The position numbers and the translations under genes were made by a program. This document shows, in pieces, positions 16,080 to 32,908 of a stretch of DNA of 32,908 nt (positions are counted from its first letter, which is position 1; each line of letters begins with the position of its first letter). The notes beneath the pieces were generated by a model. That model was not told the DNA's origin, searched no databases, and was given only the letters and a program-made list of their open reading frames with translations. The DNA is from Muribaculaceae bacterium (GTDB taxonomy: Bacteria; Bacteroidota; Bacteroidia; Bacteroidales; Muribaculaceae): contig JAFTDD010000088.1 in the NCBI GenBank assembly GCA_017454355.1, forward strand, positions 1 to 32,908, read 5' to 3'.

Positions 16080-16096
16080 TCACCGTCACGTAAATA

Positions 16097-16168
16097 TTCT
16101 CCCGTGAAATATCGTGAATTTCCGTAAAATATTTTATTCACGATGATTAACGGGAATTCACGGGAGAA
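16097..16168. repeat. Nested inverted repeats between GT2 and phosphatase genes
   Basis: Outer arms TTCTCCCGTGAA (16097-16108) and TTCACGGGAGAA (16157-16168) are perfect 12-base complements. Inside, ATCGTGAAT (16111-16119) pairs with ATTCACGAT (16136-16144). It may act as a terminator or cruciform; no clear T run follows on the plus strand. Confidence 0.65.
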
Positions 16169-16240
16169 AAATCTTATGTATCTTATGTTCTTATGGCTAT
16201 GAAAAATATAACAATAGAGCAGAATAACAATTTTGAAGAG

Positions 16241-16774
16241 ATGTCAACTATCAAGGTGCGGTTGCTGTTTGTTTGTATGGGCAATATCTGTCGGTCGCCG
16301 GCGGCACAGGCTGTGATGCAACGCCTTGTGGACGAGCGCGGGCTGAGTGATTGTTTTGAGATTGACAGCGCGGGCACCATCGACTATCACGAGGGGGAAC
16401 TGGCCGATGCCCGAATGCGCCGTGCGGCCGCCCGTCGCGGCCTTGAACTGACTCATCGTAGCCGCCCCGTGCGTCCGGAGCGCGACTTCGACTATTTTGA
16501 CCACATCATCGTTATGGACGAGGCTAACCTGAGCTGGTTTGCCTCGCGCATGACGGCCATGGAGTGTGCGGCGAAAGTAATCCATCTGGGTCACTACATC
16601 CGCCACGAGTATGGCGGCCGCCGCTACGACGTTGTGCCCGACCCCTACTATGGCGGCCCGGCCGACTTTGAACTCGCTCTCGACCTGCTCGAGGACGCCT
16701 GCCCCGCCCTGCTCGACGCCCTGCTGGCCCTCCACCGCTGTCACAGTCTATCAAGAATTATTGCTGTCCGGTAA
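16241..16774 (+). CDS. Low-molecular-weight protein tyrosine phosphatase
   Basis: This enzyme dephosphorylates phosphotyrosine; bacterial members often control exopolysaccharide-export tyrosine kinases. The active-site loop LFVCMGNICRSPAAQ contains C-x5-R, and the general acid lies in VVPDPYYGG. The next IDSAGTIDYHEGELAD segment is family-typical. ATG 16241 starts a few residues before the P-loop as in relatives; ATG 16193 would add 16 residues. The end is altered: a mobile element inserted here, so the last codons IIAVR-stop are read from its terminal repeat. Before insertion the protein would have ended SLSRV-stop. The core fold is intact. Confidence 0.9.
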   Translation: MSTIKVRLLFVCMGNICRSPAAQAVMQRLVDERGLSDCFEIDSAGTIDYHEGELADARMRRAAARRGLELTHRSRPVRPERDFDYFDHIIVMDEANLSWFASRMTAMECAAKVIHLGHYIRHEYGGRRYDVVPDPYYGGPADFELALDLLEDACPALLDALLALHRCHSLSRIIAVR

Positions 16775-17174
16775 AATCCATTAGGATTGTCAAAGACTGT
16801 AGGGCCTCGCCTTGGCGTGGCCGCAAGCGGCGACAAATGTGAGCCCCGTCAGGGGCGACAGCTCCTAGGCGGGGGCGCTAGCCCCCGTGACTATGGTGTG
16901 AGTTTTTTCTCCAACAAAGCCCTGTAAGGGCGACAGAAACGTGCGGAGACTGTCGCCCCTACGGGGCTGCGGTTACTTGTAGTGGCAGAATTTATTCTGC
17001 CCATCATGTTTACGGGGGCTGGCGCCCCCGCCTATGTGCTGTCGCCCCCTATCGGGGGCTCTTGGCCTCGCCTTGGCGAGGCCATAGAGTAAGCCCCGAC
17101 AATGACAAAGACGCCTAAATTGCTATAATATAATCGATTATCTGAACGTTTGTTTAATTTACCGGACAGTAATA
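16759..17174. mobile_element. 416-bp palindrome-rich MITE-like element, copy 1
   Basis: The ends TATTGCTGTCCGGTAAA (16759-16775) and, on the minus strand, TATTACTGTCCGGTAAA (17158-17174) are terminal inverted repeats with 16 of 17 matches. Flanking ATCAAGAAT (16750-16758) and ATCAAGAGT (17175-17183) are a 9-base target duplication with one difference. The interior codes for no protein and is a string of GC-rich palindromes such as GGGGGCGCTAGCCCCC (16871-16886) and GGGGGCTGGCGCCCCC, with TGGCAGAATTTATTCTGCC. It is probably non-autonomous and moved by an insertion-sequence transposase encoded elsewhere. A second copy begins at 32594. Confidence 0.85.
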
Positions 17175-17192
17175 ATCAAGAGTATAAAGAGA

Positions 17193-17226
17193 CAATGGGA
17201 ACGCCACTCCTACGGCGTTCCCATTG
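17193..17226 (-). terminator. Hairpin terminator after the vWA lipoprotein gene
   Basis: CAATGGGAACGCC (17193-17205) and GGCGTTCCCATTG (17214-17226) pair perfectly over 13 bases with an 8-base loop. It lies 40 bases after the minus-strand stop. The T tract on that strand is weak (TCTCTTTAT). Confidence 0.65.
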
Positions 17227-17265
17227 CCACTAATTATTATTATTTGTATAGCAGGTGATACGGAT

Positions 17266-18495
17266 TTAGTCTTTTTCGAAGACTATATCGTAAGTCTTGT
17301 CGGCAATGATGTCGCCCTTGGAGCCTTGAGACTTGACGGTCATGTGAACCTTATGGGATTTGCCGTCAAAGAGATTCTCCACGTTGGTGAAGCGGATAAT
17401 GTAAGAATTTTCAAGTGCTCCGCTGACCGGGAGGTCGCTCAGTTTGACCGTGTTGCCATTGATATCACGGAAGTTGCTATTGGTGAATAGCATAGTGCCG
17501 TCGGTGTAAACCGATAGATCCCACGGGTAGTTTTCTCCGATGTATTCGCTGTAGTCATTTGCCCATGCGGCGGAACGGGTATAAACCGTGTGAATGGTGC
17601 CCATCGTGGATGTCCAGTTGTCTTTCACCCATTGTGTGCTGAACAGTTGAGGCTTGTCTGCGGGTTGGTTAGGCTCGTCGGTGATGTTGACGTACACACG
17701 GTTCGCTCCGCGGCGGAAGGAGAACAGGTCGTTGGCAAATCGCAATGCCATCACTCCACACTCATTATAATCCGGGTCGCTCCAATTGGTGTAAGAATAG
17801 TAGTTGCTGACGACGCGGTAGTTCTCGTCATTGGCCGCGGCCTCAAGGGTTGCGGCGTCACTTCCGGCGAAACCGCGTGTGCGCCACACGCCGTTCACGT
17901 TGCTGCTCATCCACGATTTATTCTCAAGATAGTCCTTGAGTTGCGGCGCGGTGGTAAGGTTGATTGCACCGCTGACAAAGCCACCGTAGCCAACGCATGC
18001 AAAGCGGATGTCGAGAGTGGATGACAGTTGCTCCGCCCATTCGATGATGTCGCGGCAGATGGCATCGGCCTCTTCGCTCATGCTGGTAGAGTTGTCCACC
18101 AAGAAAACAAGATCAACCGCGGGGTCCGGTAGGGTAGCCAATTCATCGATGGTGTTGGTCAACGAGAAGCCTTTGGGGACTCCGTCGAGTTCAATCCACG
18201 CGTTTTGGGTGCTGGCGTTGGTGGGACCATAGAGTTTCATCCAGTCTTTGGTGAACGGGTCCTGAACGCCTGTCATGTCGAGGCGAACCACTTTCCAGCC
18301 ATTCTCTGTAGAAACACTGTAACTGACGTTGGGAAGCACAGTGTTGAGGTCTTCACTGCTAACAACCGGGTTAGCGGTGGCATTGTCGTCTGATGGAATG
18401 CCGCTGACAGACGGTGTCTTGTCTTTGTCGTTGCAGCCGACAAGAGCAAAACCTGCCATCAAGGCGAGTGCAATGAGTTTGAATTGCTTTTTCAT
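17266..18495 (-). CDS. vWA-domain lipoprotein
   Basis: The 409-residue lipoprotein has a signal sequence MKKQFKLIALALMAGFALVG and lipobox Cys21. A linker and a small N-terminal domain lead to a von Willebrand factor A domain starting near residue 125 (PAVDLVFLVDNSTSMSEEAD); Asp134, Ser136 and Ser138 form the DxSxS of the metal-ion-dependent adhesion site. Other expected strands are DIRFACVGYGG and RVYVNITDEPNQP. Such domains mediate protein-protein contact at the cell surface. The substrate or partner is unknown. It is separated from the other minus-strand genes by a terminator and has its own -7 element. Confidence 0.88.
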   Translation of the reverse strand: MKKQFKLIALALMAGFALVGCNDKDKTPSVSGIPSDDNATANPVVSSEDLNTVLPNVSYSVSTENGWKVVRLDMTGVQDPFTKDWMKLYGPTNASTQNAWIELDGVPKGFSLTNTIDELATLPDPAVDLVFLVDNSTSMSEEADAICRDIIEWAEQLSSTLDIRFACVGYGGFVSGAINLTTAPQLKDYLENKSWMSSNVNGVWRTRGFAGSDAATLEAAANDENYRVVSNYYSYTNWSDPDYNECGVMALRFANDLFSFRRGANRVYVNITDEPNQPADKPQLFSTQWVKDNWTSTMGTIHTVYTRSAAWANDYSEYIGENYPWDLSVYTDGTMLFTNSNFRDINGNTVKLSDLPVSGALENSYIIRFTNVENLFDGKSHKVHMTVKSQGSKGDIIADKTYDIVFEKD

Positions 18496-32593: not shown

Positions 32594-32908
32594 TATTACT
32601 GTCCGGTAAATTAAATAAACGTTCAGATAATCGATTATATTATAGCAATTTAGGCGCCTTTGTCATTGTCGGGGCTTACATATAGGCCACGCTGACGCGT
32701 GGGAAATCTTTCAAAATCCCAATTTTAAATTTCTCGCAAGCAGTCAAGTTGTTAGGGTGTAGGGGCAGAATTTATTCTGCCCGATTGCCGATGGGTGGGC
32801 AGAATAAATTGCTCCCGTTCGGTCGCGAGCTAAAGGTTCTGCCCCTACAAGTAACCGCAGCCCCGTAGGGGCGACAGTCTCCGCACGTTTCTGTCGCCCT
32901 TACAGGGC
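32594..32908. mobile_element. Palindrome-rich MITE-like element, copy 2 (runs off the window)
   Basis: It starts TATTACTGTCCGGTAAA. Bases 32594-32679 match the reverse complement of 17089-17174 at 84 of 86 positions, and 32845-32908 match the reverse complement of 16919-16982 at all 64 positions. Between these blocks copy 2 has 165 bases and copy 1 has 106, mostly unrelated except for palindromic GGCAGAATTTATTCTGCC modules. No protein is encoded in the visible part. The other end and target duplication are outside the window. Confidence 0.85.

Follow-up and report, generated by a model that had tools for sequence, protein, structure and literature searches.

What is the 416-bp non-coding mobile element (16759–17174) that lies at the 3′ end of a phosphatase gene in the window (i.e., the whole stretch of 32,908 nucleotides of Muribaculaceae DNA analysed here), and where does its palindromic interior come from? 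The reading that we consider probable is that of a gene-less REPIN-like unit inside a DDE-type MITE with ends of the IS4 family (DUF4372 type). The host assembly amounts to 2.7 Mb in 102 contigs and is 89% complete.

The terminal inverted repeats of the element are identical at 16 of 17 positions, and their arms can be extended to 19 nt at 95% according to an inverted-repeat search. The two 9-base flanks match at 8 of 9 positions, and thus represent an imperfect duplication. Both features had been claimed in an earlier note on this DNA, and both are confirmed in the sequence, the family to which the element belongs showing perfect 9-bp duplications as well. The same note described the interior as palindromes and not as a decayed transposase. 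Indeed, no open reading frame of at least 80 aa is present inside the 416 bp and the interior matches correspond to hairpins, and a decayed transposase was hence rejected. The features of the locus are collected in the following table.

Table. Features of the locus, with positions as numbered in the window
Feature	Position	Strand	Basis
Low-molecular-weight protein tyrosine phosphatase gene, last codons inside the element	16193..16774	+	PF01451, 111.5 bits; orthologues without the extension
Target-site duplication, left copy, ATCAAGAAT	16750..16758	+	sequence; 9-bp duplications across the family
MITE, 416 bp	16759..17174	+	terminal repeats, genome copies, duplication statistics
Left terminal inverted repeat, TATTGCTGTCCGGTAAA	16759..16775	+	common to IS4-family elements
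Brick A, GTAG + hairpin GGCCTCGCCTTGGCGTGGCC	16799..16822	+	also without outer ends in genus genomes
Brick B, AGCCCCGTCAGGGGCGACAG	16842..16861	+	core alignment
Brick C, TAGGCGGGGGCGCTAGCCCCCG	16866..16887	+	73 host-genome copies, 0 in control
Brick D, AGCCCTGTAAGGGCGACAG	16918..16936	+	repeat search; flanks of Y1 orthologues
Brick D′ (mirror of D)	16950..16968	-	inverted repeat; end point of several left-only copies
Brick E, GTAG + hairpin GGCAGAATTTATTCTGCC	16979..17002	+	missing from some copies
Brick C′ (mirror of C)	17013..17034	-	inverted repeat; brick C count
Brick B′ (mirror of B)	17040..17060	-	inverted repeat
Brick A′ (second A palindrome)	17064..17083	-	direct and inverted repeat
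Right terminal inverted repeat, TTTACCGGACAGTAATA	17158..17174	-	repeat search; end counts
Target-site duplication, right copy, ATCAAGAGT	17175..17183	+	sequence
Terminator-like hairpin between convergent genes	17188..17231	.	inverted repeat; scored terminator-like on the - strand only
Second element copy, partly assembled	32594..32908	-	similarity search; at window end

Regarding the insertion site, the present phosphatase frame ends in ...HSLSRIIAVR-stop, four residues longer than the frames obtained by joining the flanks with a script, which end in ...HSLSRV-stop (right copy of the duplication kept) or ...HSLSRI-stop (left copy kept). Removal of the element and one repeat hence restores a stop for the phosphatase, as had been proposed, while the exact pre-insertion end is something that we only infer, because the C-terminus varies between species. 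The C-terminal extension is absent from all 19 genus phosphatases examined, 18 of them at 54–58% identity and that of genome G016 at 85%; this comparison covered 19 of 22 genus matches, the three most distant ones (33–38%) being set aside. In G016, the closest relative met with, the phosphatase ends in ...TRYRL, carries no insert, and is closely followed by a terminator-like hairpin. A relative thus has the gene without the element, as the earlier note recommended looking for, and the finding that would have spoken against its reading (the same 3′ extension in element-free orthologues) did not turn up among the 19. The insertion of the element at the phosphatase end is well supported. An AT-rich inverted repeat (CACGTAAATATTCTCCCGTGAAAT...) occupies positions 16087–16180, just 5′ of the phosphatase gene, and similar ACGAAAATTTACG repeats occur at other loci of the host genome.

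A similarity search of the host genome with the element returned 102 matches, window included, which are pieces and not 102 elements. The 19-base end (at most 3 mismatches) occurs at 39 sites of the host genome versus 3 for the reversed pattern, and the exact 16-bp end is present in 14 of 101 genus genomes (control, 0). End pairs from six genus genomes, host included, enclose differing interiors of 76 to 972 bp. When all loci from many genomes are taken together, perfect 9-bp duplications flank 12 of 49 end pairs, some spurious pairs still being among them, versus a shuffled-flank mean of 0.29 and maximum of 4; the mean flank match over the 49 pairs is 5.18 of 9, versus 3.57 ± 0.19 for shuffled flanks. 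In these pairs, one base lies between the duplication and ATT/AAT. The two-ended copies of the host genome show flank matches, out of 9, of 8 (L001), 3 (L002), 6 (L003), 8 (L004), 8 (L007), 9 (L014), and 9 (L062), L002 thus showing no duplication. Conserved ends are common to the copies, many of which keep only one end; the second finding that would have spoken against the earlier reading, copies lacking conserved ends, is thus not borne out either. Such repeated copies with conserved ends, together with the insert-free relatives, support the earlier view of a MITE with a readable insertion history.

Some copies depart from this pattern. The second copy in the window differs in its interior, which has additional GGCAGAA palindromes and CCCACGCGTCAGCGTGG, and runs off the contig end. 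Three left-only copies of the host genome (L011, L012, and L016) have in common an alternative right end of ~50 bp (..TATTATTAACATGACTAT.AATCACTTTTACATCAG.., with differences) which is not the usual terminal repeat. In turn, a 972-bp element of genome G061 (contig C109; L100:1442-2413) has exact outer ends, a perfect 9-bp duplication, a helix-turn-helix gene (PF01381), and a small gene without Pfam match; the gene pair is arranged like the HigB/HigA toxin-antitoxin, and this element suggests that these ends can carry passenger genes. Short elements that have these ends and are flanked by perfect 9-bp duplications are also found in cultured Bacteroidales: 218 bp in Duncaniella muris (L230) and 231 bp in Prevotella ihumii (L206).

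The same ends bound 1.4-kb insertion sequences of the IS4 family (DUF4372) in other Bacteroidota, among the matches listed. The one from an uncultured Prevotellaceae (L231) measures 1,441 bp and has two exact ends, a perfect duplication (ATTCTAATC), and a transposase with DUF4372 and DDE_Tnp_1 domains that the curated model assigns to the IS4 family. Two parent-type proteins score 180.2 and 182.4 bits with the curated IS4 model NF033592 (cut-off, 115), and perfect duplications flank two further Prevotella elements (L265 and L268, the latter when its outer right end is taken). A terminal repeat next to a transposase gene, which the earlier note had proposed to look for, is therefore found in named Bacteroidota. 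The element resembles this group (NF033592; PF14294 + PF01609) in its 16-bp ends and 9-bp duplications, but differs from it in having no transposase and no parent copy found in the host genome.

No IS4/DUF4372 transposase was found in the host assembly. An IS4-type transposase match is present in 4 of 24 other genus genomes; only in G006 does it cover the full length, at 27% identity, the other matches being partial. Among the frames listed between the genus end pairs, no transposase was recognised by eye. The missing parent is weak evidence, because repeats break these assemblies. A contig-end sequence of genome G089 is matched at 11 places, spread over 7 of 297 family genomes; 10 of them lie at most 250 bases from a contig end, which is consistent with repeats lost in assembly. 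We infer that an IS4/DUF4372-type transposase, acting in trans, inserted the MITE, duplicating 9 bp, at a site where the phosphatase frame ends and the terminator-like hairpin follows.

The palindromes of the interior follow a mirror order, A-B-C-D, a 13-base loop, and D′-E-C′-B′-A′, in which the 47-nt arms B-C and C′-B′ are 85% complementary. Judged by eye, the motif compared with the GT[AG]G foot of REPINs reads GTAG in bricks A and E; GTAG or GTAA, inside the stem-loop, in D; and CTAG, ATAG, or GTAG in C. Brick C (at most 2 mismatches) occurs 73 times in the host genome and not at all in the reversed control; for 34 of these copies an outer end is at most 400 bp away, but not for the other 39. 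Seven host-genome cores (L021, L030, L064, L065, L066, L068, and L358) have no outer end nearby, which shows that the core also occurs on its own. The reverse situation is found in G016, where a 153-bp MITE (L109) has the same two ends and no core. Positions 1–43 and 305–416 of the element, once joined, give L109 with 7 mismatches in 155, neighbouring joins being nearly as good. The A palindromes form a 20-nt direct repeat. Two routes account equally well for the core-less form: (i) the array was inserted into a simple MITE, with no target duplication being made, which is how HUH enzymes act; or (ii) recombination between the A palindromes removed the core.

The host genome has several Y1 (PF01797) genes, one of which (C52:17695-18138) encodes 148 aa and is flanked by C bricks in inverted orientation (17625-17646 and 18211-18232). 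At this locus, a D brick lies just 5′ of the start with a B variant outside it, while the downstream D is degenerate and was missed by the pattern. With 73 copies in 2.7 Mb, a C brick on each side within 75 bp of the gene is not expected by chance. No other close copy of the gene is present in the host genome, the next best match listed being 39%. Its flanks thus carry inverted hairpins of a kind repeated across the genome, as in a REPIN/REPtron, and the core of our element is REPIN-like in layout. Shared sequence, order, and orientation support the view that this core, B-C-D/D′-C′-B′, would be the array that elsewhere flanks the Y1/HUH gene, here minus the gene. The earlier guess that the palindromes are structured or bind protein was hence right in kind, and they are best explained as a mirrored hairpin array of the HUH (Y1) type.

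The association extends beyond the host. Including the C52 gene, orthologues are present in 22 of 101 genus genomes; 21 were located by tblastn at 52–63% identity (one with a truncated match), the C52 gene itself being the 22nd locus. C- or D-type bricks adjoin 19 of the 21, on both sides in 17, and the two orthologues without a strict C/D match (L385 and L388) have mirrored flanks in the wider test described below. Brick sequences vary from species to species, related but different C-type bricks being found at the Y1 loci of other species. In a comparison that covered 10 of 26 Y1 loci, the upstream and downstream arrays of the same locus have 137 inverted 11-mers in common (13.7 each) versus 3.6 for mismatched pairs, and at least one such 11-mer is found in 9 of 10 own pairs versus 56 of 90 mismatched ones.

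For the wider test, the upstream flank was compared with the reverse-complemented downstream flank. Dropping loci with no match, short flanks, or duplicates reduced 66 loci to 56, three of which have no Y motif. Of the 53 genes with the Y---Q--HH motif, 50 had flanks that scored above all 100 shuffles, versus 2 of 27 ordinary window genes, the latter being the better control because the shuffles were simple base shuffles. The three exceptions are L285, L392, and L300, which is a tie. The 53 include five genes of other families in the same order (L284, L285, L290, L295, and L300), and within the genus the result is 47 of 48; discounting one success with abnormally low shuffle scores (L304) leaves 49 of 52. 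Neither of the two intact Y1 genes without the Y---Q--HH motif (L281 and L282) is mirrored, and L316, an interrupted gene with no Y motif and misplaced borders, is mirrored by eye but not by score. The interrupting sequence (L316:1388-1650) is an AT-rich repeat, AAAATCCGCAACTCGTTGTTTGCC..., which contains palindromes of the ACGTAAATTTACG type and recurs beside a MITE copy, from L062:1430 onward. Other Y1 genes of the host genome (L311, L312, L314, and L315) each have mirrored arrays of their own on both sides, whose sequences differ by eye.

The C52 protein has the motifs DHVH, WQ, and YIRNQEEHH, and passes the IS200/IS605 model NF033573 (63.4 bits; cut-off, 55), but its gene lacks a close second copy, whereas subclass 1.1 (IS200/IS605) comprises multi-copy IS with terminal hairpins and a Y---Q motif. 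With the REP_Tyr_transpos model NF047646 it stays below the cut-off (27.3 versus 80 bits), and the Y---NP motif, described as the class signature of TnpA-REP (RAYT, class 2) (PMC6006769), is absent. The enzyme is therefore not regarded as a RAYT. When judged by the published description, it agrees with TnpA-Y1 subclass 1.2 (Y---Q--HH, DHVH, WQ, ~148 aa, low copy number). This subclass is described as having a low copy number, as occurring mostly in Cyanobacteria and Bacteroidetes, and as being generally without terminal IS200 secondary structure (PMC6006769). Our enzyme is alike in length, motifs (YIxNQxEHH included), copy number, and phylum, but differs in its mirrored hairpins. The flanking arrays are, in consequence, a concrete candidate substrate for a subclass published as generally hairpin-free.

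That the core is, in its anatomy, the mirrored array of an orphan HUH family minus the gene is well supported, and a candidate mechanism can be outlined. The Y1 enzyme would recognise the hairpins as single strands, by analogy with REPINs, and would thereby move the array; a simple MITE may have captured the array, or the array may have been assembled within it, and would then spread together with the MITE. A wider proposal, in which we place as much doubt as trust, is that the orphan subclass 1.2 has a substrate, namely the mirrored array flanking each gene, which may spread without the gene, and that gene-less arrays enter IS4-type MITEs, resulting in one small element with DDE ends outside and a HUH core inside. 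Hairpin repeats might in this way spread by riding in the miniature of an unrelated transposon. Such a route could explain the abundance of some REP-like families, given the 73 copies of brick C, partly close to outer ends, versus the barely spread array of another host Y1 gene (C63), found at only 2 places away from its own locus. Array recurrence was counted for these two host Y1 loci, and the C63 count indicates that dispersal is not general.

The alternative that survives best, albeit an unlikely one, has no connection to Y1: the element would be an ordinary MITE of the IS4 type, and its palindromes would have arisen when GC-rich intergenic hairpins (terminators, repeats) recombined with one another. 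Interior bricks are indeed swapped, lost, and gained between copies, brick E being gained or lost among the 19 aligned distinct cores. Bricks A and E could not be tied to Y1 genes: the Y1 loci contain a single loose match to A and a few to an F palindrome (GGGACACAATTCATTGTGTCC), all of them away from the genes. Furthermore, G016 has 43 C bricks while its best match to the C52 protein is only ~40% identical, i.e. not a close orthologue; G074 has 6 variant bricks and a distant Y1 gene only. Brick C of this form is also much rarer in the genus, at 3 of 101 genomes, than the C52 gene and its orthologues, at 22. Against this alternative speak the B-C-D order and orientation, equal to those of the flanks of the host Y1 locus, the C or D bricks beside nearly all orthologues, and the mirrored flanks that ordinary genes seldom have.

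It is highly improbable that selection keeps the element at gene ends in a domesticated, regulatory or RNA role, such as that of a hairpin which stabilises or terminates mRNA. Its folding is extreme (z of -13.3 as DNA and -14.4 as RNA against shuffles, the shape being one long hairpin), and it separates the phosphatase stop codon from the terminator-like hairpin, so that, if co-transcribed, a long hairpin would sit on the 3′ end of the phosphatase mRNA. However, its distribution is patchy (the ends in 14 of 101 genus genomes and brick C, at one mismatch, in 3 of 101), the duplications mark it as mobile, and covariation is weak, with double changes in 5 of 45 pairs of a core alignment that mixes close copies. 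In addition, no Rfam family reaches its gathering score between 16000 and 17600; the best match, the plant microRNA model MIR1858 (37.4 bits versus a gathering score of 137), was rejected as a chance match on the long hairpin. Bacteroidales promoters are unlike the sigma-70 type, and a sigma-70-type promoter prediction at 17102–17129 was thus set aside.

Among left-end-only copies (14, with at least 150 bases past the break and no right end), the resemblance to the element stops at element positions 178–213, i.e. at the central hairpin, in 7. These breaks are not taken as proof of Y1 cutting, slippage at the palindrome explaining them equally. Although such breaks and the cores without outer ends would fit a composite moved mainly by the Y1 enzyme, with the outer ends as passengers, this is the least probable reading of all, for the 9-bp duplications point to a DDE enzyme, IS200/IS605 members being described as making no larger target duplications (PMC2817692).

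The preferred reading, a REPIN-like core inside a DDE-type MITE, finds partial parallels among known systems. In the open-licence PMC papers searched, neither hairpin partners of subclass 1.2 nor an IS4-type MITE with a REP-type core were found to be reported. REPINs and the REP-RAYT system, as described (PMC3116915; PMC2817692), are alike in their inverted hairpin pairs, in a Y1 gene lying between the same hairpins, and in their many copies; they differ in that here there are up to three hairpins per side, a Y---Q--HH motif instead of Y---NP, and a DDE MITE as carrier. The BrickBuilt MITE of Porphyromonas gingivalis, according to its description (PMC4596501), likewise belongs to Bacteroidales and combines a modular repeat interior with IS-type ends and few two-ended copies, whereas its ends are of the IS5 type and its interior is a 23-nt tandem minisatellite, in contrast with the mirrored hairpin array found here. 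Finally, bricks A and E resemble GTAG-tagged REPs in being short hairpins with a preceding GTAG, but the survey of these repeats places GTAG in other phyla and CGTC in Bacteroidetes (PMC3733652). At 4 of 32 sites checked in the genus genomes (L042:1507, L045, L048, and L052), brick A falls within an open frame of at least 150 codons; there it is always translated as VGPRxGVAD, which recalls palindromic repeats that have entered protein genes.
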